From: Lentzea sp. NEAU-D7
GTDB lineage: Bacteria; Actinomycetota; Actinomycetes; Mycobacteriales; Pseudonocardiaceae
DNA length: 64,000 bases
Assembly: GCF_026242055.1 (NCBI RefSeq)
Contig: NZ_JAPJDL010000013.1
Span: 65,357 to 129,356, forward strand
Reading direction: 5' to 3'
Below the pieces are notes generated by a model. It was not told the origin of the DNA. It saw only the letters and a list, made by a program, of their open reading frames with translations, and searched no databases. Made by a program: the position numbers and the translations under genes. Numbering within the stretch: the first letter of the stretch is position 1; each line of letters begins with the position of its first letter. Positions 7,067 to 64,000 of this stretch are shown in pieces.

Positions 7067-7136
7067 GCTGGCTCCTGGGAGTCGCGCTGATGGCTCAGGG
7101 GTCGAGCGGGCGGGGGAGTGGCGCGGGTGCGGCCGG

Positions 7137-8279
7137 TCAAGGCTGGTCCCCGCTCTCCCGCACCCGGCTCAGGTGGTCGTGGGCGCGCCGGATCTCGGTG
7201 TCCAGCGCTGAGACCGTGCTGAACAGGGAGTCGGCCGCGCGGGCCTTGAAGGTGTCGACCGCGTCGATCGCCGCGTAGATCTGGTCGAACGAGGTCCGCA
7301 CCGCCTCGATGCCGACGGCCGGGGTCGAGGCGATGCGCTGGATCTCCTCGCCCTGCGACGACACCAGCGCCGCGTTCGAGCGCAGGATCGAGTCGGTGAG
7401 GCCGCGCACGGCGTCCACCTGGTCGATCACCTCGCGCTGGCCCGCCAGCGCCGCCGCGACCGCCACGCCGATCCGCAGCGCGGTGACGGTCGTGCCGACC
7501 GCCCGCTCGATGCCCTTGACCAGCTCGTCGTTGTTGCGGCGCACCACGTCCAGCGCCAGGTAGCCCTGCGCGCACACGGCCAGCTGGGTCAGCAGGTCCT
7601 GGTGCCGTTGCCGCAGGCCGAAAAGCACGTCGGCGCGCAACGCCTGCGCGCGGGCGGGGTCGGACAGGTCCAGGATCGCGACCTGCCGTTCGACGGCCTC
7701 GTCCATCTCGGCGGCCAGCGCGGCGTCCCGCGACAGCGCGGTCATCAGGTCCCACAGGCGTTGCCGCTCGCCCTTGATGGCGGCGTTGTCGCGCTTCAGC
7801 GCGTCCTGGCCGGACCTCAGCTTCAGCACGATGCGGTTGAGCGGCTCGTCGGCCGCGCGCAGTCGTGCCAGCAGGCCGCGGGCCGAGTTGCCGCCGGGCA
7901 GGAAGCCGAGGATCTTGCGGCCGGTCAGCCTGCTCAGGTCCTGCGGGTCGAGCTCGCGGACGGAGCGCCGCAGCTCGGCCAGGCTCGTCGAGACCTGCGC
8001 GCCGTGCGGTGACGAGACGGACGCGAGCGTGCGGTCGAGCAGGCGGCCCGCGATCTGCGCCGCCAGCCGCATCTCCTCCTCGCCGAGCACCAGTGCCTCG
8101 TCGGCGATCCGGCTGAAGTCCGGTGACCGCGGGTCGGCGGCGCCCAGGGCCGAGACGAACGCCTCGGCGCGCGCCGACAGCTCACCCCTGGTCTCGTCGG
8201 CGACGGGGATGAGCCCCGCCGCGCGGCCGACCGGCACGGGCTCGACGGGATCCGGCGGTGTCAGGACGAAGTCGTTCAT
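7137..8279 (-). CDS. TelA-family protein (toxic anion resistance)
   Basis: 380 residues, the usual TelA length. Typical family stretches are visible, such as KILGFLPGGNSARGLLARLRAADEPLNRIVLKLRSGQDALKRDNAAI and the repeated long amphipathic helices to the end. It is soluble and probably coiled-coil. ATG 8279 begins two bases after the stop of the upstream binding-protein gene at 8282. TelA proteins were named from plasmid tellurite resistance but most have no proven activity; many sit beside XpaC or Ter-type genes. Here the context is two solute-binding proteins, a VWA domain and an XpaC-like protein, so an envelope-stress role is a guess from context. Confidence 0.85.
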   Translation of the reverse strand: MNDFVLTPPDPVEPVPVGRAAGLIPVADETRGELSARAEAFVSALGAADPRSPDFSRIADEALVLGEEEMRLAAQIAGRLLDRTLASVSSPHGAQVSTSLAELRRSVRELDPQDLSRLTGRKILGFLPGGNSARGLLARLRAADEPLNRIVLKLRSGQDALKRDNAAIKGERQRLWDLMTALSRDAALAAEMDEAVERQVAILDLSDPARAQALRADVLFGLRQRHQDLLTQLAVCAQGYLALDVVRRNNDELVKGIERAVGTTVTALRIGVAVAAALAGQREVIDQVDAVRGLTDSILRSNAALVSSQGEEIQRIASTPAVGIEAVRTSFDQIYAAIDAVDTFKARAADSLFSTVSALDTEIRRAHDHLSRVRESGDQP

Positions 8280-11087: not shown

Positions 11088-12787
11088 CGGGCCACCGCCA
11101 GCTGGTAGGAGGAGTCGCGGCCGAGCAGTTCGCGGTGGGTGCCCTCGGACGCGACCGTGCCGCCGTCCAGCACGACGACCCGGTCGGCCACGTCGAGCAG
11201 CGCCGGGCTGCTCGTGATCACGATCGTCGTCCGGCCGCGGCGCAGCTCGGTCAGGTTGCGGGCGATGAGCTGCTCGGTCACCGCGTCGACGGCCGTCGTC
11301 GGGTCGTGCAGCACCAGGATCTCCGGGTTCGCGGCCAGCGCCCGCGCGAGCGACAACCGCTGCCGCTGCCCGCCGGACAGGTTCGCTCCCCGGTCGCGCA
11401 CGGCGTAGTCGAGGCCGTCGGAGTGCAGGGCCACGACGTCGGTCAGCATCGCGGCGGACACCGCCTCGTCCACCAACGTGCTGGTGCCGGCCGGGTCGAC
11501 GTTCTCCCGCAACGTTCCCGCGAACACCTCGTGGTGCGAGGGGTTGACCAGCAGGTGGGTGCGCACGCTCTCGATCGTCAGCGACGCGACGTCCTGCTTG
11601 CCCACCCGGACCACGCCCGCGTACGAGGCCGGAGGCACGTCGACGGAAAGCACGGCGGCCAGTTCGGCGGCGGCCTGCGGCTGGTAGGCGGCGATGGCCA
11701 CGAACTCACCGGGCTGCACCGAGAAAGTCAAGTCCCGCAACGTTCCGTGCGTGACTCCCGCGACTTCGAGCCCGCTCTCCGAGACGACCTCCTCGACACC
11801 GGGGGTCATCCGCGCGGGGGCGGCGAGGACCAGCGCCATCCGTTCGGCGGAGGCCCGCGCGATCATCACGTACTTGGGCATCTCCGAGAACAGCTTCAGC
11901 GGCTCGATCAGGAACTGCGCCAGCCCGACCGCCATCACCAGCTGGCCTACGGTGATCTCGCCCTGGAACGTCAGCAGGCCCGCCCACAGCGTCACCGCCG
12001 CCGCCAGCAACGAGTTCAGCGCCAGGGCCAGCCCGGCGTAGACGCCGTTGACCCGCGCCACGACGATCGACTGCTGCTTCGCCTCGGTGCTCACCCGGCG
12101 GTAGGCCTGGAACGCCGCGTAGCTGCCGCCGAACCCGTGCAGCGGCCGCAGTCCGGCGATCAGGTCGGACACCTTCGCCCCGGCCCGCGCCACCTTCGCC
12201 TGCTGCACCTGGGTGTTGCTGCCGATCCGCCGGGACATCACGCTGAGCACCGTCAGGATCGCCGCCGTGCCGGCGAACACCAGCACGCCCAGCGGCACGC
12301 TGATCACCACCAGCACGACACCCGTGATGGCCACCGACACCAGCGCGCTGACCAGCAGCGGCACCACCTCGATGATGTCCGCGGTCTGGTCGGCGTCCTC
12401 GGTGGCGACGGTGAGAACCTCGCCGGACTTCAGGTCGACCTCGCGCGCCACCGGCTGCAGGCCGCGGTTCGCGACCTCGACCCGCCACCGGTGTGCCTCG
12501 GTCGTGTTCGCCTTCTGCAGGATCCGCATGCCGAAGCGCCACGAGTACGACACCGTGGCCATCACGAGACCGAGCGCGAGCAGCGCCAGCCCGAGGGAGC
12601 TGAGCCGACCCCCGCGCAGCGCGTACTCGACGATCACGCCGAGCAGGATGGGCACGGCGGTCTCGGCGGCCTGGTAGGACCCCATGAGCAGGGTCCCGGA
12701 CGCCATGGCGCCTCGGTTGCGGCGCAAGGCGATCCGCAGGATCTCCTTGCCGGTGCGGACTTCAGTGTTCGTCAACGTGGCGCGCAA
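11084..12787 (-). CDS. cchI: ABC half-transporter with decayed ATP site but intact signature (CchI-like)
   Basis: 567 residues: six-helix export-type membrane domain (about 30-320) then an ATPase domain. The ATP-binding elements are lost: the Walker A position near residue 365 reads [13 protein letters not shown] without GKS/T, the Q-loop reads [11 protein letters not shown], the Walker B region reads LVLHDPT (Asp to His, Glu to Asp), and the switch His is Ser (VITSSPALL). The signature LSGGQRQR near 470 is perfect. This complements the partner encoded at 23612-25408. The start is TTG 12787 or TTG 12775, both inside the NRPS 3' end, so translation is probably coupled. Expected role: siderophore export or membrane transfer as a heterodimer. 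Confidence 0.85.
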
Positions 12788-30083: not shown

Positions 30084-32783
30084 TCAGACTTCCCGGGCCG
30101 GGGTGTCGTTCGCGCCCGTGAGTCTCCCTGGTCCCAGGTGTGCGCGCAGGCGGTCCGCCTCCTCGTCGCGGCCCTGCGCCTCCAGCATGCCCAGCGCCCG
30201 CCGCCAGAGCTCCGCGGCCCGTTCCGGCCGGCCGAGCGCCAGGTGGGTGTGGCCGAGGTTCGTCAGCGTGCCGGCGGTGCTGTAGTCGTCGGCGGCGGCC
30301 CGGTACAGCTCGACGGCGTGTTCGTAGTGGGCGATCGCCGCCGTGAGGTCACCGCTCTGGTGCTCGACGCGGGCCAGGGTGTCGTGGGCGGTCGCCTCGC
30401 CGTGCCGGTCGCCGAGCTCGTGCAGCAGTTCGAGGGCCTTCGTGGCGGACAGGCGGCCCTGCCCGGTGTCGCCGACCTCCGCCGCGCAGTGCCCGATGTT
30501 GTTGTGCGCCATGGCGATCAGCATCTTGTTGCCGGAGCTCTCGTAGTGCTGGAGCGCGGCCTTGGCGTGCTCGAAGGCCCGTAGGTGCTCCGACCGGCTG
30601 GCCCACAGCCACGCGAGCGTGCCGTGCACGTCGGCCAGCAGCAGCGGTTCGCCGACCTGTTCCGCGAGCACCAGCGCTTCGCCCAGGTGGTGCCGCGCCT
30701 CGTCGTGGCGCTGGACCTGGCCGAGGCCGCCGCCCATGATCCGGTGCGCCACGGCCCGGTCCGCCGGGTCCCGCGCCGCGCCGAGGGCGGCCCGCCACAG
30801 CGCCAGCTCGTCGTCGAGATGACCGCGTTGCTGGTGGTAGGCGTGCGACACCCTGGCCAGCAGCACGACCTCGTCGTCCCACCCGCGGGCGGCCGCGGCC
30901 TGCTGCACGGCGCGGCGAGTGCCGCGTTCGGCGTCGAACCACGCCAGTGCGCCGGCCTTGTCCCCGGCGGCGGTGACGTGGACGCGCGGTGCGCCGAGGC
31001 TGATCAACGGGCGGTGCGGGTCGATCAGGCGGTCGTGGGCGTGGGCGGTGTGCACGTGGTGATCGACCAGGCGCCGCAACGCCTCCTCACGGCCTGGGAC
31101 GTCGAGCTGCGCGGCGTAGGTGCGCACCAGGTCGTGCATCCCGACGCGGAAACCGTCGCCGATCGAGATCAGCGAAGCCTGCTCCAGCGCTCTCAGCGCG
31201 TCGCGCGTGTCCTCTGTGGACAACCCGGTGAGGGCGGCGGCCGCGTGCAGGCCGATGTCCTCACCCGGTGCGCCGCCGATCAGGGCGAACACGTCCTTCT
31301 GCCGGTCGGGCAGCGCGCGGTAGGACCAGGAGAGCACGACCGGCACGCTGACGCGCGGGTCGGCGTCGAGCGCGCCCAGCCTGAGCTCGTCGAGCTGGCG
31401 GGCGATGTCGGCGAGCGAGAGACCGGGTTCGGTCAGGACGCGGGCACCGATGATGCTCAACGCCAGCGGCAACCCTCCGCACAGGTCGACCAGCCGTGCC
31501 ACGGCGGGCGGGTCGGCGCTCAGCCTGGCCGCGCCGACCAGGCTCGCCAGCAACGTTCCCGCCTCGTGGCCGGCGAGCACGTCCAGGCAGAGGGTGTCGG
31601 GGCCGCACAGCCGGTTGCGGCTGGTCACGAGGACCCGGCAGGTGGTGCCGCCGGGCAGCAGCGGCGCGATCTGCGCGGCGCCGGCGGCGTTGTCGACCAC
31701 GAGGAGCACGCGGCGCCGGCCGATGACGTCCCGGAACAGCTCGGCTCTGGCGTCCTGGCCGGACGGGACTCGGTTCGCGTCGACGCCGAGCGCGTGCAGG
31801 AACCCGCTGATGGCGACGTCAGGGTCCATCGGCCGTTCGTCGGGGCTGAACCCGCGCAGGTCCACGAACAGCTGGCCGTCCGGGAAGCGGTGCAGGTTGT
31901 CGTGGGCCCAGCGCAGCGCGAGCCACGTCTTGCCCATGCCGCCCGCGCCCGCGATCGTCACCGCGCCGGCCGTGCGCATCACCTCGTCCAGCCCGGCCAG
32001 GTCCTGGTCGCGGCCGACGAACCGCGCCGGCGCGGACGGGAGCTGCCTCGGCACGACCGGCGCCGGTCCGCGGTCGCCGTGGAGCAGTTCCTCGTGCAGG
32101 TCGCGGAGCTCCCGGCCCGGTTCGGTGCCGAGCCGGGCGCGGACGGCGCGGAACTCCTCGAGCGCCTCGGGGATCCGCCCGGCCTGCGCGAGGGCCCGCA
32201 TGTGTTGCGCGGCACCGTGTTCGTCCAAGGGGTTCCGCGCGGCGCGGGCGGAGATCGAGGCGAGCAGTCCGGGGCCCTGGCCGAGCCGCAGCCGGGCGTC
32301 GAGGAGGTCGGCCTCGGCGGCGGTGCGTTCGGCGGTCAGCCGGTCGCGGGTGACGTCGGCCCAGTCGCCGCCGATGCCGGTCAGCGGTTCGCCCCGCCAC
32401 AACCGCAAGGCCTCGGTGAGGACGCGGGCGACCGCCTCGTCGTCGGTGAGTTCGCGGGCCGCGTCGCGGAGTCTTCGGAACCGCACGAGGTCCACGGCGG
32501 ACTCGTCCGCGACGAGGACGTACCCGGCGGCCCGGCCGGTGAGCGCCACCGCGGTGCCGAAGGCCTGGCGCAGACGGGAGAGGTAGCTGTGCAGGGCGGC
32601 GCGCGACCGCCGCGGCGGGTCGGCGCCCCAGACGCGTCCGGTCAGCTGCGTCACGGTCACGACCTTGTTGACGTCGATCGCCAGCGCCGCCAGCACGCAC
32701 CGCTGCCGCGCGTGCCCGAGATCGACCGCGACGCCGTCGACGCGGGCGCCCACCTCGCCGAGCAGGGCGATCTCGACCGTCAC
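30084..32783 (-). CDS. AfsR-type SARP regulator (winged HTH, BTAD, NB-ARC, TPR)
   Basis: 899 residues from GTG 32783, with GGAGGG 6-7 bases upstream. Winged helix about 1-90, BTAD about 95-235 (VRARLGTEPGRELRDLHEELL end), NB-ARC ATPase from about 260 with P-loop GAGGMGKTW near 282 and Walker B VLLVVDNAAG, then a helical region and TPR repeats of about 640-880. All ATPase elements are intact, in contrast to the protein encoded at 2558-4765. AfsR-like regulators integrate phosphorylation or ligand signals to activate secondary metabolism. Its target is unknown; the siderophore locus downstream is controlled at least partly through iron boxes. Confidence 0.88.
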   Translation of the reverse strand: MTVEIALLGEVGARVDGVAVDLGHARQRCVLAALAIDVNKVVTVTQLTGRVWGADPPRRSRAALHSYLSRLRQAFGTAVALTGRAAGYVLVADESAVDLVRFRRLRDAARELTDDEAVARVLTEALRLWRGEPLTGIGGDWADVTRDRLTAERTAAEADLLDARLRLGQGPGLLASISARAARNPLDEHGAAQHMRALAQAGRIPEALEEFRAVRARLGTEPGRELRDLHEELLHGDRGPAPVVPRQLPSAPARFVGRDQDLAGLDEVMRTAGAVTIAGAGGMGKTWLALRWAHDNLHRFPDGQLFVDLRGFSPDERPMDPDVAISGFLHALGVDANRVPSGQDARAELFRDVIGRRRVLLVVDNAAGAAQIAPLLPGGTTCRVLVTSRNRLCGPDTLCLDVLAGHEAGTLLASLVGAARLSADPPAVARLVDLCGGLPLALSIIGARVLTEPGLSLADIARQLDELRLGALDADPRVSVPVVLSWSYRALPDRQKDVFALIGGAPGEDIGLHAAAALTGLSTEDTRDALRALEQASLISIGDGFRVGMHDLVRTYAAQLDVPGREEALRRLVDHHVHTAHAHDRLIDPHRPLISLGAPRVHVTAAGDKAGALAWFDAERGTRRAVQQAAAARGWDDEVVLLARVSHAYHQQRGHLDDELALWRAALGAARDPADRAVAHRIMGGGLGQVQRHDEARHHLGEALVLAEQVGEPLLLADVHGTLAWLWASRSEHLRAFEHAKAALQHYESSGNKMLIAMAHNNIGHCAAEVGDTGQGRLSATKALELLHELGDRHGEATAHDTLARVEHQSGDLTAAIAHYEHAVELYRAAADDYSTAGTLTNLGHTHLALGRPERAAELWRRALGMLEAQGRDEEADRLRAHLGPGRLTGANDTPAREV

Positions 32784-53339: not shown

Positions 53340-53395
53340 CTTCAGTTACTAAACAAAGAAAGTCAACGCCTCGGGATGCTTTACTGATCCCGAGG
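53340..53395. promoter_or_regulatory. Divergent regulatory region: AT-rich island and 27-bp dyad
   Basis: Between the binding-protein start (53299) and the ROK start (53435) lies an AT-rich run (53343-53365, containing AGTTACTAAACAAAGAAAGT) that stands out in this high-GC DNA. It is followed by a perfect dyad: CCTCGGGAT (53369-53377), nine bases, ATCCCGAGG (53387-53395). Either may bind the ROK protein. Confidence 0.5.
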
Positions 53396-53434
53396 TTGTC
53401 GATGGATCTGTTCGTCGTTCGACGGAGGAGTGCT

Positions 53435-54667
53435 GTGAGCGGACCGGCGCGGGTGACCCACGCCAGCACCAGGGCGGCCGTGCTGGACCTGGTCAGGGCG
53501 GCCGGGATGATCAGCCGTGTCGGCCTGGTCAACGCCACCGGCCTGACCGGCGGCACGATCTCCACCGTCGTGCGCGGCCTGATCGACGAGGGGCTGGTGG
53601 CCGAGACCGGGCACGCCGAGTCGACCGGCGGCAAGCGCCGGGTCATGCTGCAGCTCAACCACTTCGCGCGCTACGCCGTCGGCGTGCACCTCGACGACGC
53701 GCGGATCACCTACGTCCTGACCAACCTCGGCGGAGCGGTCGTCGCCAGGATCTCCCGCGCGGGCGCCGGCGCCGACGAGCCGGCGGCCGTGGTCGCCAGG
53801 GTGGCCCGTGAGGTCGGCGCGCTGATCGACAGCGTGGGTGTCGAACGCGATCGAATCCTCGGGCTGGGACTCGTGGCGGCTCGTCCGGCGGAGCACCACG
53901 AGTTCGGCCGTGCGGTCGAGCGGGCGACCGGCCTGCCGGTGGTGCTCGACAACGACGCGACCGCGGCGGCGATCGGCGAGCACTGGTCCGGCGGTGTCGG
54001 CGCGACGTCGACGTTCGCCGCGCTGTTCATGGGGTCGGACGTCGGCGCGGGCATCGTGCTCGGCGGCACCACCTACCGGGGCCCGAGCGGCCACACCGGC
54101 GAGATCGGCCACACCTGCCTCGACGTCGACGGCCCGCGCTGCCGGTGCGGCGCGCGCGGGTGCCTGGAGGTGCTGGCCGGTCCCGCCGCGGTCGTGGAGC
54201 AGGCACGGGCCGACCGGGCACTGAGTCGTGCGGCAGGGCTCGTCGGAGGCCGTACCCGCGCGGCGACACCGGTCGCGGCCGACTTCGCGGCGATCAGCAG
54301 GGCGGCCAGGCAGGGCAACACCCGCGCGGTCGCGTTGCTCGAACGGTCCGCCCGGTACTTCGCGGCCGCCGCGCGCACGCTGGCGAACGTGCTGGACCTG
54401 GAGGTGCTGGTGCTCACCGGCCCGAGCTTCGCGATCGCGGGCTCGATCTACCTGCCCGTGCTGCGCGCCGAGCTCGACAGCGCGTTCATCGCGCGCGACG
54501 CCCACCCGATCTCCGTGCGGCTGTCGCCCTCCGCGGCGTCGGCGCCCGCCATCGGCGCCGCGGCGATCGTGCTGCAGTCGGAGCTGGTGCCGCGGCGTCA
54601 GGGCCTGCGGCTGCCGGACGACCTGGCCGCCGAGGAACCGCCCGTGTTCGGGCAACTGGTCCGCTGA
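53435..54667 (+). CDS. ROK-family transcriptional repressor
   Basis: 410 residues from GTG 53435, preceded by GGAGGAG at 4 bases; an ATG at 53402 has no ribosome site. N-terminal winged helix (STRAAVLDLVRAAGMISRVGLVNATGLTGGTISTVVRGLIDEGLV), then a ROK sugar-binding fold with DNDATAAA, GHTGEIGH and the zinc motif CRCGARGCLE. It lies divergent from the mannoside importer operon, the usual arrangement for a local sugar-responsive repressor. Since the LacI-like protein of the operon cannot bind DNA, ROK is the likely regulator. Confidence 0.88.
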   Translation: MSGPARVTHASTRAAVLDLVRAAGMISRVGLVNATGLTGGTISTVVRGLIDEGLVAETGHAESTGGKRRVMLQLNHFARYAVGVHLDDARITYVLTNLGGAVVARISRAGAGADEPAAVVARVAREVGALIDSVGVERDRILGLGLVAARPAEHHEFGRAVERATGLPVVLDNDATAAAIGEHWSGGVGATSTFAALFMGSDVGAGIVLGGTTYRGPSGHTGEIGHTCLDVDGPRCRCGARGCLEVLAGPAAVVEQARADRALSRAAGLVGGRTRAATPVAADFAAISRAARQGNTRAVALLERSARYFAAAARTLANVLDLEVLVLTGPSFAIAGSIYLPVLRAELDSAFIARDAHPISVRLSPSAASAPAIGAAAIVLQSELVPRRQGLRLPDDLAAEEPPVFGQLVR

Positions 54668-57560: not shown

Positions 57561-57586
57561 CAAGCCTCCACAAAGGACTTCGCTGT

Positions 57587-57627
57587 TTCGACGGCGTTCG
57601 ACGGGGTCGTTCGACGGCATTCGACAG
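57587..57627 (+). repeat. Four phased TTCGACGG repeats upstream of sugar importer
   Basis: TTCGACGG at 57587, 57597 and 57610 and TTCGACAG at 57620, with spacings 10, 13 and 10 bases (near one helical turn). They lie just upstream of a -35-like TTGACG (57633), the position of an activator. The reverse-complement motif recurs before the GH16 gene. Confidence 0.65.
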
Positions 57628-57632
57628 CTTGC

Positions 57633-57680
57633 TTGACGCTCATCAAGCACCGATGCAGACTCCGGAAAGCGTTTTCCGGA
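57633..57680 (+). promoter_or_regulatory. Promoter and LacI-type operator of sugar importer operon
   Basis: TTGACG (57633) and CAGACT (57656) are 17 bases apart. TCCGGAAAGCGTTTTCCGGA (57661-57680) is a 20-bp near-perfect palindrome with the central CG of LacI-family operators; it covers the predicted start site and ends 18 bases before the first ATG. Confidence 0.65.
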
Positions 57681-57698
57681 CGGCGAGGTCGGGGGTAG

Positions 57699-58622
57699 AT
57701 GAGCGCTCTAGACGAACTGCGTCAGCTGCGCCGGGGTGGTGTGCAGGTCCGGAAAAGCGACAACAAAGCCGCTTTCTGGTTCCTCGCGCCGTGGTTCGCC
57801 GGGCTGCTCCTCGTCACCATCGGCCCGGTGATCGCGTCCTTCGCGCTGGGCTTCACGAAGTACAACCTGATCCAGCCGCCCAGGTTCATCGGTTTCGACA
57901 ACTTCGCGCGCATCCTCAGCGACTCCCGCCTGCACAACGCCCTGCGGGTCACGTTCACCTACGTGCTCGTCTCCGTGCCCCTGCAGCTGGCCTGCGCGCT
58001 GGGAGTCGCGCTGCTGCTCAACCGGGGGTTGCGGGGGCTCGCGTTCTACCGCTCGGCGTTCTACCTGCCGTCACTGCTCGGGTCGAGCGTGGCGATCGCG
58101 GTGCTGTGGACGCAGGTCTTCGGCACCGACGGACTGGTGAACCGGGTCCTGGGCTTCTTCGGCGTCGAGGGCAGGGGCTGGATCTCCGACCCGGACACCG
58201 CGCTGTCCACGCTGATCGTGCTGAACGTGTGGACGTTCGGCTCACCGATGATCATCTTCCTGGCAGGGCTGAGACAGATCCCGGAGGTCTACTACGAGGC
58301 CGCCGCGATCGACGGGGCGAGCAGGTGGTCGCGGTTCCTGCGGATCACCCTGCCGCTGCTCTCGCCGATCCTGTTCTTCAACCTGGTGCTGCAGATCATC
58401 CACGCGTTCCAGTCGTTCACGCAGGCGTTCGTCGTCTCCGGCGGCACCGGCGGACCGTCCGACTCGACCATGTTCTACACGCTCTACCTGTACCAGCAGG
58501 GTTTCAGCCGGTTCGACATGGGTTACGCGTCGGCGCTGGCGTGGTTCCTTCTGCTGATCGTGGCCGCGTTCACGGCGATCAACTTCTGGGCGGCGAGGTA
58601 CTGGGTGTTCTATGACGACTAG
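57699..58622 (+). CDS. Sugar ABC importer permease (MalF/UgpA type)
   Basis: 307 residues, six membrane segments. The EAA loop reads YYEAAAIDGASRWSRFLRITLPLLSPIL, typical of carbohydrate (CUT1) permeases. N-terminal KAAFWFLAPWFAGLLLVTIGPV starts the first helix. The stop overlaps the next gene by 11 bases. No ATPase gene lies in the operon, so a shared MsiK-type ATPase is expected, as in other actinomycete CUT1 systems. Confidence 0.92.
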   Translation: MSALDELRQLRRGGVQVRKSDNKAAFWFLAPWFAGLLLVTIGPVIASFALGFTKYNLIQPPRFIGFDNFARILSDSRLHNALRVTFTYVLVSVPLQLACALGVALLLNRGLRGLAFYRSAFYLPSLLGSSVAIAVLWTQVFGTDGLVNRVLGFFGVEGRGWISDPDTALSTLIVLNVWTFGSPMIIFLAGLRQIPEVYYEAAAIDGASRWSRFLRITLPLLSPILFFNLVLQIIHAFQSFTQAFVVSGGTGGPSDSTMFYTLYLYQQGFSRFDMGYASALAWFLLLIVAAFTAINFWAARYWVFYDD

Positions 58623-59445
58623 AAGACTCGCCACTCCCGCCAAGCATCTCGGCCTGGTCCTGATCGGGTTCGTGATGCTGTACCCGGTGCTGTGGATGGT
58701 CGCGAGCTCGTTGCGGCCGGGGGACGAGATCTTCCGCAGTCCGGGCCTGATCCTCGACGGACTCCGGACCGAGAACTACACCGAGGGCTGGAACGCCCTG
58801 ACGCCGTCGTTCGGCACCTACCTGCTGAACTCGGCGATCCTGGTGCTGGGCTGCATCGTCGGCAACCTCGTGTCGTGCTCGATGGCCGCCTACGCCTTCG
58901 CCCGGTTGCACTTCACCGGCAAGCGGTGGTGGTTCGGCATCATGCTCGGCACGATCATGCTGCCTATCCACGTGATCATCGTGCCGCAGTACGTGCTGTT
59001 CTCGAACATCGGCTGGGTCAACACGTTCCTGCCGCTGATCGTGCCGAAGATCCTCGCGACCGACGCGTTCTTCGTCTTCCTGATGGTGCAGTTCATCCGG
59101 GGCCTGCCGCGCGAGCTCGACGAGGCGGCGCGCATCGACGGCTGCGGCCATCCGCGGATCTTCCTCCAGATCATCCTGCCGCTGATGACGCCGGCGCTCG
59201 CGACCACCACGATCTTCACGTTCATCTGGACGTGGAACGACTTCTTCAGCCAGCTGATCTACCTGACGGACCCGGACATGTACACGGTCCCGGTCGCACT
59301 GCGCTCGTTCGTCGACTCGACGGTCGCCACGTCCTGGGGCTCGCAGTTCGCGATGAGCGTCGTGTCCCTCCTGCCGATCTTCCTCGCCTTCCTCGTCGGC
59401 CAGCGGTTCCTCGTCAAGGGGATCGCCACGACCGGGGGCAAGTAG
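58612..59445 (+). CDS. Sugar ABC importer permease (MalG/UgpE type)
   Basis: 277 residues, six membrane segments. EAA loop ELDEAARIDGCGHPRIFLQIILPLMTPALA. It partners the preceding permease, whose reading frame it overlaps. CUT1 importers of this type bring in di- and oligosaccharides. Confidence 0.93.
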   Translation: MTTRRLATPAKHLGLVLIGFVMLYPVLWMVASSLRPGDEIFRSPGLILDGLRTENYTEGWNALTPSFGTYLLNSAILVLGCIVGNLVSCSMAAYAFARLHFTGKRWWFGIMLGTIMLPIHVIIVPQYVLFSNIGWVNTFLPLIVPKILATDAFFVFLMVQFIRGLPRELDEAARIDGCGHPRIFLQIILPLMTPALATTTIFTFIWTWNDFFSQLIYLTDPDMYTVPVALRSFVDSTVATSWGSQFAMSVVSLLPIFLAFLVGQRFLVKGIATTGGK

Positions 59446-59460
59446 CCGAAAGGACAGCTC

Positions 59461-60771
59461 ATGCTCAGAGGTGTTCGCCGCGGGACCGCGTGGGCGGTCC
59501 TGCTGTCGCTGACCGCGTCCCTGCTGGCGGCCTGCGGGTCCGGATCGGACGCGGGTGGCGACCTGACGACGGAGAAGGTCACGCTGCGGTTCACCTGGTG
59601 GGGCGCGGACGACCGGCACAAGCGCACCCAGCAGGTCATCGAGATGTTCCAGCGCAAGCACCCGAACATCACCGTCAAAGGTGAGTTCAAGGAGTGGAAC
59701 GGGTACTGGGACAGCCTCGCCACCACCATGGCCGCCAACGACGCGCCCGACATCATGCAGATGGACGAGCTCTACATCGCCTCCTACGCCGAGCGCGGCG
59801 CGCTGCTGGACCTGAACGAGGCAGGCAAGCACCTCGACACCTCGAACTTCGACAAGAAGGCGCTCGCGACCGGCGCCATCGCCGGCAAGCAGTACGGGCT
59901 GCCGGTCGGTCTCGGCATGTACTCGATCATGGTCAACCTCGACCTGCTGGAGAAGTACGGCATCCCGGTGCCCGACGACACGAAGTGGTCGTGGGACGAC
60001 CTGAGGAAGGTCGGCGAGCAGGTGTCGAAGGCCGGTGGCGGCCAGGTGTTCGGCGTGCAGTCGCCGGGCATCAACGACGCGGCGGGGCTGAGCATCCGGG
60101 CCCGGCAGCAGGGCAAGGCGATGTTCGACGCCGACGCCAAGGTCGTGCTGCCGCAGGAGATCGCGCGCGACTACTGGCAGTACATCCTCGACCTGTCCAA
60201 GTCCGGCGTCACGCCCCCGCCGTCGGTGAGCATCGAGAAGGCGTCCGCCGGGCTGAACCAGTCCGCCACCGCGACCGGCACCGCGGCGTTCGGCCTGTGG
60301 TGGAACACCCAGCTGACCGCGCTGACCGCCGCCAGCGGGGCCAAGCTGAAGCTGCTGCGTCTGCCCGGCGAGACCCAGGGCACGGCGCCCGGCGCGTACT
60401 ACAAGCCCTCGATGTTCTGGTCGGTGTCCGCGCGGTCGAAGTACCCGGCCGAGTCCGCGGCGTTCGTGAGCTTCCTCGCCAACGACGAGGAGGCCGCGAA
60501 GGTCCTTCTGACCGAACGCGGCGTGCCCGCCAACCAGAAGATCCGGGAGGGGATCGCTGGGCAGCTCAAGGACACCGACAAGGCCGCCAAGGAGTACCTC
60601 GACACCGTTCCGGTCAGCGACCCGCCCAGGATCACACCGAACGGGGCCAGCACCCTCGACACCGTCCTGAAGCGGTACACCGAGGACGTGCTGTTCGGCC
60701 GGACGACGCCCGATGCGGCCGCCGCGGGGTTCATCAGGGAAGTCCAGTCCGAAGTGGACGCCGCGAGGTGA
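59461..60771 (+). CDS. Sugar-binding lipoprotein of ABC importer (family 1)
   Basis: 436 residues with a lipoprotein signal (TASLLAACGSGSD). Family 1 fold: VTLRFTWWGADDRHKRTQQVIEMFQRKHPNITVKGEF start, ANDAPDIMQMDELYIASYAERGALLDLNE and a C-terminal FVSFLANDEEAAKVLLTERG-like region. It gives ligand specificity to the importer; nearby PmoA-like, oxidoreductase and GH16 genes suggest a polysaccharide fragment. AAAGGA lies 6-7 bases before the ATG. The stop overlaps the next gene as GTGA. Confidence 0.92.
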   Translation: MLRGVRRGTAWAVLLSLTASLLAACGSGSDAGGDLTTEKVTLRFTWWGADDRHKRTQQVIEMFQRKHPNITVKGEFKEWNGYWDSLATTMAANDAPDIMQMDELYIASYAERGALLDLNEAGKHLDTSNFDKKALATGAIAGKQYGLPVGLGMYSIMVNLDLLEKYGIPVPDDTKWSWDDLRKVGEQVSKAGGGQVFGVQSPGINDAAGLSIRARQQGKAMFDADAKVVLPQEIARDYWQYILDLSKSGVTPPPSVSIEKASAGLNQSATATGTAAFGLWWNTQLTALTAASGAKLKLLRLPGETQGTAPGAYYKPSMFWSVSARSKYPAESAAFVSFLANDEEAAKVLLTERGVPANQKIREGIAGQLKDTDKAAKEYLDTVPVSDPPRITPNGASTLDTVLKRYTEDVLFGRTTPDAAAAGFIREVQSEVDAAR

Positions 60772-61850
60772 GGCGGGCCGCCATCGTCGGCACGGGTGCG
60801 ATCGCGGCCGCGCACGCGGAAGCACTGCGCGCGGCGGGAGACCGCGTCGAGCTGGTGGCCGTGGTGGACGTGGACGCCGATCGCGCCACGGCGTTCGCCG
60901 AGGAGTGGGGCGTGCCGCGCACGCACCTCACCACGGCGGCGCTGCTGGACGCGGAGGACCTCGACCTGGTGCACGTCTGCACGCCGCCGCGCTCGCACGT
61001 GCCGCTCGCCCTCGAATGCCTCGCCGCGAACGTGAACGTGCTGGTGGAGAAGCCGCCGGCGTTGTCGTTGAGCGGGATCGACGCGCTGATCGCGGCCGAA
61101 CGCGGCTCGACCGGCCGGGTCGCGACGGTGTTCCAGCACCGCTTCGGGCCCGCCGCTGTCCGCCTGCGCCGCCTGGTCTCCGAGGGGGTGCTCGGCAGGT
61201 CGTTCGTCGCCAAGTGCGACACGCTCTGGTACCGCGGCGACGCCTACTTCGACGTGCCGTGGCGCGGCACGTGGGACAGCGAGGGCGGCGGCCCGACGAT
61301 GGGCCACGGCATCCACCAGTTCGACCTGCTGCTGTCGGTCCTGGGGCCGTGGCAGGAGATCCGGGCGGTCGCGGTCCGGCAGGCGCGGCACGTGCAGACC
61401 GAGGACGTCTCGATGGCGCTGGTGACGTTCGCCGACGGCACGGTCGCCTCGATGATCAACTCCTTGCTGTCGCCCAGGGAGACCTCGCAGCTGAGGTTCG
61501 ACTTCGAGCGCGCCACGGTCGAGGTCGAACACCTCTACGGCTACACCGACGCGGACTGGACCGTGACTCCCGCGCCCGGCCACGACGAGGTCGTGACCCA
61601 CTGGCGCGGTGAGCGGCCGGAGGTCGTGAGCGGTCACCGGGGTCAGCTGACGGCGTTGCTGGACGCGCTGGACAGCGGCGAGACGCCACCGGTGACCCTC
61701 GCGGACACCAGGAACACGATGGAGTTCGTCGCGGCGCTGTACGCCTCCGCGTTCACCGGCGCCGTCGTGAAGGCCGGGGAGATCGGTCCGGACAGCCCGT
61801 TCTACGCGACGATGGAAGGAATCGGTGCCCCGTGGGCGAACGCTCGGTGA
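60768..61850 (+). CDS. Gfo/Idh/MocA-family oxidoreductase
   Basis: 360 residues from GTG 60768. Rossmann domain with the NAD(P) loop VGTGAIAAAHAEAL, DVDADRA, VHVCTPPRSH and the EKPPALS motif carrying the conserved Lys near 95. The C-terminal alpha/beta domain has GGGPTMGHGIHQFDLLL, with the histidine expected near the active site. These enzymes oxidise or epimerise sugars. It lies in the sugar importer operon, so the substrate is probably the imported sugar or a derivative. Confidence 0.92.
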   Translation: MRRAAIVGTGAIAAAHAEALRAAGDRVELVAVVDVDADRATAFAEEWGVPRTHLTTAALLDAEDLDLVHVCTPPRSHVPLALECLAANVNVLVEKPPALSLSGIDALIAAERGSTGRVATVFQHRFGPAAVRLRRLVSEGVLGRSFVAKCDTLWYRGDAYFDVPWRGTWDSEGGGPTMGHGIHQFDLLLSVLGPWQEIRAVAVRQARHVQTEDVSMALVTFADGTVASMINSLLSPRETSQLRFDFERATVEVEHLYGYTDADWTVTPAPGHDEVVTHWRGERPEVVSGHRGQLTALLDALDSGETPPVTLADTRNTMEFVAALYASAFTGAVVKAGEIGPDSPFYATMEGIGAPWANAR

Positions 61851-62713
61851 TCCTGCGGCAGGACGAGGAGGTGCTCACCGCGTCGGTGGGCGACGTCGAG
61901 CTCTTCCGGTACGTCTACCGGCCGTCCACGCCCGCGTTCGAGGGCCCGAAGCCCTACCTGCACCCGGTGCGCACGCTGGCGGGCGACGTCGTGACGGCGT
62001 TCCGGCCGCACGACCACCGCTGGCACAAGGGCGTGCAGATGACCGCGACCGACGTGTCGGGGGAGAACTTCTGGGGTGGCGTCACGTACGTGCGCGACCG
62101 GGGCTACGCGGCGCTGTCGAACGTCGGAACCATGCGGCACGAGGAGTTCGAGGTCGACGGTGCCCGGTTCGACGAGCGGCTGTCCTGGTTCACCGAAGAG
62201 GAAGAACGGTGGGTCGGCGAGTCGCGTTCGTTCGCCGTGCGCGACGTCGAGGAAGACTCGTGGACGCTGGAGTTCGCCACCACCCTGACGAACCTGCGTG
62301 CCGAGCCGCTGGTGTTCGGCAGCCCGACGACGAACGGGCGTGAGCTGGCCGGGTACACCGGGTTCTTCTGGCGCGGCCCGCGTTCATTCACCGACGGCAC
62401 CGTGATCGCCGCCGACGGGGGAGCAGGGCAGGAGATGATGGGCAAGGCCGCGCGCTGGCTCGCGTTCATCGGCCGGCACGACGAGGTCGACCGCACGTCG
62501 ACGCTGCTGTTCCTGGACCACCCGGACAACAAGAACACGCACTGGTTCGTGCGCAGCACGCCGTTCGCGGCGGTCAACCCGTCCTTCGCGTTCTTCGACA
62601 CGGTGGAGCTGGCGCCCGGTGCGGCGCTGACCCTGCGCTACCGGCTCGTCGTGGCCGACGGCGAGTGGGACAGGGCGCAACTGGAATCCCATGTGGAGGA
62701 ACATCCGTGGTGA
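61832..62713 (+). CDS. PmoA-like (DUF6807) family protein
   Basis: 293 residues from GTG 61832, overlapping the oxidoreductase end by 19 bases. Features of this beta-sandwich family: RPHDHRWHKGVQMTATDVSGENFWGG near 55-80 (His/Asp cluster), FFWRGPRSFTDGTVI, and HWFVRSTPFAAVNPSFAFF near the end. Despite the PmoA label it has no membrane segments and is not a methane monooxygenase. The family is frequent next to Gfo/Idh/MocA genes in sugar loci; its reaction is unproven. Confidence 0.85.
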   Translation: MGERSVILRQDEEVLTASVGDVELFRYVYRPSTPAFEGPKPYLHPVRTLAGDVVTAFRPHDHRWHKGVQMTATDVSGENFWGGVTYVRDRGYAALSNVGTMRHEEFEVDGARFDERLSWFTEEEERWVGESRSFAVRDVEEDSWTLEFATTLTNLRAEPLVFGSPTTNGRELAGYTGFFWRGPRSFTDGTVIAADGGAGQEMMGKAARWLAFIGRHDEVDRTSTLLFLDHPDNKNTHWFVRSTPFAAVNPSFAFFDTVELAPGAALTLRYRLVVADGEWDRAQLESHVEEHPW

Positions 62714-63420
62714 CACCGTTTCCCGGTGGGATCGGGATCTCCGGCCTGAGGGTGTACGACTGGCCGGCGGTGGACGGGGTCTGCGGCGGCTCGCCGCACG
62801 TCCACCTCGCGTGCTCGGAGTGCTACTACGTGGTCGGCGGGCAGGGCAGCGTCCAGACCCTGACCCGCCGCGGGTTCGCCGAGACACCGCTGCGTGAGGG
62901 CACCGTCGCCTGGTTCACGCCCGGCACGATCCACCGCCTGGTCAACGACGGCGACCTGCGGATCCTCGTCGTGATGCAGAACAGCGGCCTGCCCGAGGCG
63001 GGCGACGCGGTGTTCACGTTCCCCCCGGAGGTGCTGGCGGACCCGGAGGACTACTCGGCGCACGCCCGGGCCGGTGACGAGGAGTCGGCCCGGCGGCGCA
63101 GGGACCTGGCCCTGGAAGGGTTTCTCGAGCTGAGACGACGCGTCGAGGCGGGCGAGGACGTGGCGCTGGACGACTTCTACCGCTCCGCGGCGCGGCTGAA
63201 GCAGGGCGTTCTGGGCGACTGGGAGAAGCGGTGGCGGGCCGGTGCCCTGGCCTCGGCCGAGCGCACCGGCGAGCAGCTGGACCGCCTGCGGGACGGCGAC
63301 ATCGGCCACCTCGCGGAGGCGGACGTCCACGTGGTGCGCGCGGAAGGGCCGAGGCGGTTCGGCATGTGCGGCCGGCTCGACGTCCACGACCCGGCCGACG
63401 GACGCTCACCGCACGACTGA
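62710..63420 (+). CDS. Cupin-domain protein
   Basis: 236 residues from GTG 62710 (GTGA overlap with the preceding stop). A cupin barrel (about 20-120) with SPHVHLACSECYYVVGGQG and GTVAWFTPGTIHRLVNDGDLRILVV gives the two cupin motifs and likely metal ligands. The C-terminal half (about 125-236) is helical. It ends the operon. Probably a sugar isomerase or sensor, since it is co-encoded with an oxidoreductase and a PmoA-like protein; that is context only. Confidence 0.8.
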   Translation: MTPFPGGIGISGLRVYDWPAVDGVCGGSPHVHLACSECYYVVGGQGSVQTLTRRGFAETPLREGTVAWFTPGTIHRLVNDGDLRILVVMQNSGLPEAGDAVFTFPPEVLADPEDYSAHARAGDEESARRRRDLALEGFLELRRRVEAGEDVALDDFYRSAARLKQGVLGDWEKRWRAGALASAERTGEQLDRLRDGDIGHLAEADVHVVRAEGPRRFGMCGRLDVHDPADGRSPHD

Positions 63421-63421
63421 C

Positions 63422-63458
63422 CCGTCGAGTCGAACCACCCGTCGAACCGTCCGTCGAA
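63422..63458 (+). repeat. CCGTCGAA repeats upstream of GH16 gene
   Basis: CCGTCGAG (63422), CCGTCGAA (63439) and CCGTCGAA (63451), plus a partial AGTCGAA (63428). These are the reverse complement of the TTCGACGG repeats at 57587-57627. They end 48 bases before the GH16 ATG. Confidence 0.6.
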
Positions 63459-63506
63459 TCGGCGGAACTGTTGTGCGGCAACGAGTTCGTCCTGGACAGT
63501 GAGGCG

Positions 63507-64000
63507 ATGAGAATCGCAGCAGGCGCACTCGTCGTCGTCCTCACGGCCGCCTCCACCACTCCCGCGAACGCGGCGGCGTGGGAAGAGGTGATCGGGACCG
63601 GGTCCTTCAGCGGCTACGGCGCGCTGGAGTCGGAGTGGAACTACCGCTACCCGTGGGGCTCCGACCACAACGGCACGGCCAGGATGTACGCGAGCCCCAG
63701 CGACCACAACCACGTGTCGCTGTCCGGCGGCGTGCTGACGGTGAAGGCGACCCGCATCTCCTGGGACGAGGGCAACAGCAGCGCCGACCCGCACCTGCCC
63801 ATCCGCTACCACTCCGGTGCGATCCACGCGAAGGAGCACGTCGTGGTGAACGACCAGTTCCCGAACTGGGAGGTGAAGGGAGACTTCCAGGCACCCTCCA
63901 CCCGCGGCACCTGGCCCGCGTTCTGGTTGACCGGCGTCAACAGCTGGCCGCCTGAAAGTGACATCTTGGAGTTCAAGGGCGACAACCGGAACTGGTTCAA
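63507..64000 (+). CDS. Secreted GH16 endoglycanase, 5' part (cut by window end)
   Basis: 164 codons are visible. Signal peptide MRIAAGALVVVLTAASTTPANAA-like, then a GH16 beta-sandwich start with LESEWNYRYPWGSDHNGTARMYASP, and the catalytic ExDxxE motif as ESDILEF near residue 154. GH16 members cut beta-1,3-, beta-1,3-1,4-glucans or marine galactans; the lineage cannot be chosen from this fragment. GAGG precedes the ATG at 3-4 bases. It is downstream of the sugar importer operon and shares its repeat motif, so it is probably the secreted enzyme feeding that importer. Confidence 0.85.
   Translation, partial: MRIAAGALVVVLTAASTTPANAAAWEEVIGTGSFSGYGALESEWNYRYPWGSDHNGTARMYASPSDHNHVSLSGGVLTVKATRISWDEGNSSADPHLPIRYHSGAIHAKEHVVVNDQFPNWEVKGDFQAPSTRGTWPAFWLTGVNSWPPESDILEFKGDNRNWF

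Follow-up and report, generated by a model that had tools for sequence, protein, structure and literature searches.

Control of sugar use in actinobacteria rests mainly on substrate-specific LacI repressors, and activators of the SARP/OmpR type recognize direct repeats about one helical turn apart upstream of the −35 element, at a spacing of 11 or 22. The motifs of StrR and GlpR and the site geometry of PhoP likewise serve here as general background. In the parts of PMC5859096 used here, BldC is described as binding direct repeats head-to-tail, in numbers that vary, and PcaU-type IclR motifs, as far as the parts of PMC8222616 used here go, pair a palindrome of GTTCGAT halves with a further direct half-site outside it. 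We analyzed a 64,000-nucleotide stretch of the Lentzea sp. NEAU-D7 genome (contig NZ_JAPJDL010000013.1, positions 65,357 to 129,356; hereafter the window) in which arrays of the short box TTCGAC precede both a sugar importer operon and the gene for a secreted GH16 enzyme. In the literature searched (titles and the beginnings of abstracts) no account of a TTCGAC array motif was found, and the phrase "direct repeat" is absent from PMC10766802.

We are highly confident that these arrays are regulatory and moderately confident that one activator reads them. It is probable, in our judgment, that they are docking sites for a single Lentzea activator of polysaccharide use that acts in combination with substrate-specific LacI repressors. 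Protein binding, the involvement of a single protein, activation and repression by LacI proteins are all proposed from DNA sequence, compared across the 9.3-Mb, 43-contig genome of the strain itself, a family sample of 297 genomes (24 Lentzea and 273 others) and a class sample of 296 genomes that includes the strain's own. Domains were assigned by Pfam.

Box arrays of the importer and GH16 promoters

The elements at the two promoters are as follows.

57567–57578, plus strand: second element TCCACAAAGGAC, just 5′ of the importer array
57587–57627, plus strand: importer array, with TTCGACGG at 57587–57594, 57597–57604 and 57610–57617 and TTCGACAG at 57620–57627
57633–57638, plus strand: putative −35 element TTGACG of the importer operon, present in 22/22 Lentzea
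57656–57661, plus strand: putative −10 element CAGACT, after a 17-nt spacer
63429–63458, minus strand: GH16 array, with TTCGACGG at 63451–63458 and 63439–63446 and TTCGAC at 63429–63434
63471–63500, plus strand: putative GH16 promoter, identified by eye, with −35 TTGTGC at 63471–63476, an 18-nt spacer and −10 GACAGT at 63495–63500
63507–64000, plus strand: GH16 enzyme gene, which runs past the window to position 12289 of locus L005

Exact copies of TTCGACGG stand at both promoters, confirming the shared repeat element of the original prediction. The four repeats claimed for the importer form a real cluster made up of three exact copies and a fourth (TTCGACAG, 57620) that matches at 6/8 bases, and the three claimed for GH16 do lie in the opposite orientation, as two exact copies plus a TTCGAC that holds 6/8 of the octamer. 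The octamer itself did not survive as the unit of the motif: the core is TTCGAC, and bases 7–8 vary between copies and species. We propose that the unit would be a directional TTCGAY box, often with a G before it. Start-to-start spacing is 10, 13 and 10 at the importer, where all four boxes of this species are direct repeats, and 12 and 12 at GH16.

The window contains 14 octamers against 4.29 expected, a number reached in 0/100 shuffles. At two places in it, three or more TTCGAC lie on one strand within 50 bases; among 64-kb sequences simulated with a fifth-order Markov model (300 in all), six had at least one such cluster and none had two (mean 0.02). Chance is set aside for the arrays because of this octamer excess and these simulated cluster counts. 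Across the whole genome, TTCGACN3-8TTCGACN3-8TTCGAC occurs at the importer, at GH16 and at one coding place (C3:61033), which was set aside as an array on account of a coding frame reading FDFPFDIDFD; for this pattern, clusters are thus not common at random sites, and the condition that would have refuted the original prediction does not hold. We give very little credence to the idea that the repeats are non-regulatory and stem from TCGA-rich stretches or from codon repeats for Phe-Asp, as a high-GC genome might contain. TTCGAC does occur in 26 and 48 copies on the window's two strands, and 18/70 of the pair loci described below look coding, but the simulations, the genus-restricted three-box geometry and the conservation of intergenic boxes amid drifting spacers all argue the other way.

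That conservation is best seen at the importer, whose solute-binding protein is present in 22/24 Lentzea and in 37/297 family genomes (E up to 1e-100). All 22 Lentzea importer promoters match TTCGAY-N6/7-TTCGAY-N4-TTCGAY 5′ of an invariant TTGACG, with the last two boxes 10 bp apart in 22/22 and the first two 12 or 13 bp apart. From the start of the triple's last box to the −35 element the distance is 13 or 14 bp in 20/22 and 24 bp in L042 and L044, and CAGACT or CAAACT occupies the −10 place in all 22, with a spacer of 18 in two. An extra, inverted box lies farther upstream in 18/22 (not in L005, L038, L039 or L056). Box identities read from importer sequences that were selected by the TTCGAY pattern are circular, since the pattern itself fixes the boxes; for nine species with equal spacing, we therefore rely on an alignment made by start codon only, with no motif used in aligning. 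There the box columns are 0.975 identical (97.5%) versus 0.737 (73.7%) for the remaining positions within that 40-nt stretch, and invariant columns make up 16/18 of those in boxes versus 9/22 of those between. The motif is conserved while its neighbors drift, in a pattern that looks like a protein footprint. The original prediction had read an activator from the placement of the repeats; the array does lie 5′ of the putative −35 element in 22/22 Lentzea, and activation is a reading of that position.

The second element, written TCCACA(AAG/GTG)GAC where it adjoins the importer array upstream, is found as the type CCACAnnGGA in 15/22 importer regions and, as that type, near some other arrays.

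At GH16, the catalytic domain is recognized by PF00722 (23.7 bits, cut-off 22) and by GH16 chains in PDB (best E 3.1e-4). A GH16 hit was obtained in 12 loci, and at least three TCGA boxes are present in 11/11 of the Lentzea upstream regions read up to the start codon, a count that omits one partial hit (L050). The boxes, by eye, again lie upstream of the putative −35 element. A TTGTGC-like −35 and GACAGT or CACAGT are found by eye shortly 5′ of the GH16 start codon across loci; the sequence suggests that the transcript is perhaps leaderless. In most other species the GH16 boxes are TCGAATCGA doublets, unlike the importer geometry, as might be expected if the importer and GH16 arrays were read by different regulators of related specificity and formed no single regulon. 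We regard such a split as unlikely: our species has exact TTCGACGG at both arrays, and the 10-bp pair recurs at many genes, partly by construction because the pair was the search pattern.

Distribution in Lentzea and the wider set of targets

The three-box geometry is nearly restricted to Lentzea, and a single pair is not. TTCGAYN6-7TTCGAYN4TTCGAY occurs in 22/24 Lentzea genomes (26 matches) and in 5/273 other family genomes, where three matches lie inside predicted frames and two are without assignment; the reversed control gave 0/297. In the class sample the pattern was found in 1/296, our own genome (0/295 others). Clusters of at least three boxes were present among 79 loci in 20/20 from Lentzea, one of them titled Nocardia sp. 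NRRL S-836 and grouping among Lentzea by identity, and in 1/59 others, from Crossiella. In Crossiella sp. SN42 (L124, about 7082–7240), box clusters include one that by eye lies just 5′ of a sugar-binding-protein-like gene, and L062 is similar. The array was not seen in the 135 bases 5′ of permease 1 in 15 distant relatives (L059–L073), among which L066 is uninformative because its gene order differs.

Beyond what the original prediction claimed, there are many more targets, and box orientation is not fixed. In our own genome TTCGACN4-7TTCGAC has 32 matches versus 5 for the reversed control, with 5 at 10 bp, 6 at 11, 19 at 12 (a codon-phased distance) and 2 at 13; looser pairs are commoner. 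The pair TTCGAYNNNGTTCGAC has 122 matches in 23/24 Lentzea genomes and 2 in the reversed control. We read 70/122 by eye (30 + 40 loci), some genes being assigned by likeness to a Pfam-assigned member, with Pfam applied to representatives only. Not counted are the remaining 52 matches, of which 9 fall in regions read in another context; those at the importer and GH2/BNR were examined separately. Forty-five of the 70 loci are intergenic, 18 look coding and 7 are unclear. Of the intergenic pairs, 36/45 belong to the importer (5), GH2/BNR (3), the gap between PETase-like and GH85 genes (11) or other polymer-related genes (17), and 9/45 precede genes without a clear carbohydrate link. The motif thus stands at several related operons and is rare elsewhere, save for these nine sites and the pairs in other genera.

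By reading, the gap between the PETase-like hydrolase and the divergent GH85 gene carries a box pair in 13 genomes, with both families confirmed by Pfam. Pfam also confirmed GH10 with CBM2, GH43 with AbfB, GH5 with CBM2/CBM46, other GH5, RGL11, CE2-type and PHB-type esterases with CBM2, and GH31 with a GH39-like gene. At a sugar-binding-protein gene (L259) the pair may fall inside the 5′ coding end. Two targets are of another kind: a protein without family assignment, in four genomes, has no clear carbohydrate link, and a small protein that is roadblock-like by eye (Pfam: no hit), with no carbohydrate link, has arrays in two genomes and probably a third (L186, L088 and G140:C29:96626, the last known as a pattern match only). 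At L265 (G140:C25:218345-224345), three boxes 10–11 bp apart lie between genes that by eye resemble a transporter and an acetate permease, hinting at a wider role in carbon use.

The importer–GH16 region, together with the genes past the window, is a large polysaccharide locus. The importer operon, which GH16 follows, reads in order:

57699–58622, plus strand: ABC permease 1 (PF00528)
58612–59445, plus strand: ABC permease 2 (PF00528)
59461–60771, plus strand: solute-binding protein (PF13416, PF01547)
60768–61850, plus strand: Gfo/Idh/MocA oxidoreductase (PF01408, PF22725)
61832–62713, plus strand: DUF6807 protein (PF14100), within the importer operon
62707–63420, plus strand: cupin protein (PF07883)

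Past the window lie genes for a GH2 protein of the beta-galactosidase type, a BNR_4 protein, a GH30-like protein, an RGL11 rhamnogalacturonan lyase, GH95 and a melibiase. Two more box sites occur in this locus, one in the GH2/BNR gap (TTATCGAAC, GTTCGATTTTGTTCGAC) and one in the gap 5′ of RGL11.

A proposed shared activator combined with local LacI repressors

The importer promoter contains a further candidate regulatory site.

57661–57680, unstranded: LacI-type palindrome TCCGGAAAGCGTTTTCCGGA, covering the presumed transcription start

A palindrome of the AAAGCG or AATGCG type is kept, by eye, in 11/15 relatives outside Lentzea (L059–L065, L070–L073). Because these relatives keep the palindrome and lack the array, the LacI input would seem to predate the array, which was apparently added in Lentzea. 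Seemingly, then, the palindrome is a separate, older input at the importer, and the prediction of a second input at this promoter holds up in that respect, with repression as its probable effect. The LacI regulator gene was correctly placed elsewhere: our own genome has 37 LacI-family matches, none of them in the window.

Strict LacI-type palindromes lie within 150 bp of 14/48 array sites versus 82/4000 random pieces, for a hand-picked set of sites that contains orthologues and includes three (L253, L256, L258) restored by hand after a seed filter had removed them, and under a definition chosen after a looser one. Among intergenic gaps, 6/75 without box pairs and 12/20 with box pairs, mostly importer orthologues, have a palindrome. 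The palindromes vary by target, with a GGAAAGCGCTTTCC type, a TGTTAGCGCTAACA type at AbfB-like genes and TGGGAGCGCTCCCA at GH5. In our own genome TGGGAGCGCTCCCA, which we take to be the CebR consensus, flanks the GH5 box pair on both sides (L257), one copy having a single mismatch. A common array beside differing palindromes is the pattern expected of one shared activator working with local repressors, and the counts favor such a scheme only moderately. At L079, L203 and L217, a palindrome made of two box pairs lies 5′ of a CBM2 gene, with a GGAAAGCGCTTCCC palindrome nearby.

We propose that a single transcription factor would line up along the DNA, with each box occupied by one of its DNA-binding domains and the boxes about one or two helix turns apart. 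This factor would be a Lentzea activator for polysaccharide uptake and degradation, which at the importer and GH16 would dock just 5′ of the −35 element and recruit RNA polymerase. Several targets would add their own LacI-family operator, so that these genes would be transcribed only with the activator bound and their substrate-specific LacI repressor released. In its fullest form, for which we put the chances at little better than even, the proposal describes a master activator specific to the genus. It would govern the breakdown of polymers outside the cell (cellulose, xylan, arabinan, rhamnogalacturonan, glycans and polyesters), and its arrays would have joined older LacI-controlled promoters in the Lentzea lineage, making an AND gate of this activator and a substrate-specific LacI repressor.

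A number of observations weigh against the proposal. The cognate regulator was not found in searches that included 30/51 IclR-type loci. Strict promoter scans called no sigma-70 promoter at the importer array and none in the GH16 array region, and most other species do not retain the TTCGAC triple at GH16. The looser palindrome definition, which was used first, gave 18/48 array sites versus a background of 24%, hardly different. Own-genome pairs are not commoner at 10-bp than at 11-bp spacing (5 vs 6), and the coding-looking, unclear and carbohydrate-unlinked pair loci counted above belong here as well. The G-prefixed pair GTTCGACNNNGTTCGAC has 41 matches in 19/24 Lentzea and also occurs in 61/273 other family genomes; our own genome has no match to it and 1 to its reversed control. 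For its occurrence in other genera and its absence here, the G-prefixed pair was rejected.

The main observation against pure activation is the position of the GH2/BNR boxes. The pair TTCGATTTTGTTCGAC is identical in 13/13 loci (those whose sequence examined includes the GH2 gene, at >80% identity), and one further genome (L076) has TTCGATGTTGTTCGAC. These boxes sit between a putative −35 TTGCGT and −10 CACGCT, a possible BNR core promoter, and because of this overlap the array-binding factor may repress there. The same observation underlies the alternative that the arrays bind a common repressor or dual regulator, which would hinder polymerase 5′ of the −35 element and occupy the core promoter at BNR. 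We consider this possible though not likely, given that the importer boxes lie wholly 5′ of the −35 element in 22/22 species, as by eye do those of GH16, and that the presumed importer start point is already overlain by a LacI-type palindrome distinct from the boxes.

If the shared-activator proposal is true, a common activator layer over polymer-degrading genes, found in one genus only, would offer a handle for enzyme production. It would also be a clear case of rewiring in which a second input was added to existing promoters. With the TTCGAC motif as bait, affinity capture could identify the regulator.

Candidate regulators and known systems

Two divergent LacI-family genes (L253, G000:C5:188035-196000), some 69 kb downstream of the importer, are the regulator genes next to a box array that Pfam confirmed; GTCGAAC boxes lie in and around the gap between them. 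Within the window, a ROK regulator (53378–54664, PF00480) is unlikely as the binder, as the preceding gap has no array and, where the pair occurs within ROK genes, it belongs to coding sequence. A SARP-type regulator with BTAD, NB-ARC and TPR domains (30087–32783) likewise has no array upstream. In one genome only (L204, G182:C8:30760-36775), a box pair lies about 30 bases 5′ of the start of a gene that is SARP-like by eye. None of the 30 IclR-type matches examined out of 51 has an array beside the gene; at L233, three half-sites fall within 45 bp, about 1.3 kb from the gene. On G000 contigs C3 and C34, equally scoring IclR and LacI matches reappear at a constant offset, which suggests that the assembly contains one stretch twice.

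The half-site GTTCGA is common to the arrays and to the SOS box of LexA, in which the halves converge with a 4-nt gap. The palindrome TCGAACN4GTTCGA, presumably the LexA consensus, occurs 13 times in our own genome (reversed control 0), and one copy adjoins a gene that is lexA-like by eye (L306, G000:C14:100181). PcaU/PobR-type IclR activators, as described in the parts of PMC8222616 used here, are alike in half-site and activator role, and their external direct half-site beside GTTCGAT halves adds to the likeness. It is nonetheless quite improbable that the arrays bind a known GTTCGA half-site protein, whether LexA or an IclR (PcaU/PobR type), StrR or GlpR type. Although the half-site letters agree, those motifs consist of converging halves at a fixed distance and our importer boxes are direct repeats, none of the 13 palindromes was found at the importer, GH16 or other array sites, and the 30/51 IclR-type loci lack an adjoining array. 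The PcaU/PobR systems differ further, within the same parts of PMC8222616, in their palindromic core and aromatic-catabolism targets.

BldC shares the use of direct repeats, but its consensus as given in the parts of PMC5859096 used here, AATTXXXX(C), is not that of the TTCGAY boxes. SARP/OmpR-type sites resemble the arrays in having direct repeats near the −35 element; they differ in that spacing here is 9–13 and some boxes are inverted, and no SARP was linked to the arrays. With low confidence, we suggest that the array geometry would suit head-to-tail binders of direct repeats, either winged-helix proteins of the OmpR/PhoB type (SARP among them) or a protein resembling BldC. A further parallel lies in the control of actinobacterial cellulases and hemicellulases by CebR and other LacI proteins, where LacI-type palindromes are likewise found near importer and hydrolase genes. 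Such LacI sites are single palindromes, whereas the TTCGAC arrays are direct repeats 5′ of the −35 element that are common to genes with different palindromes.

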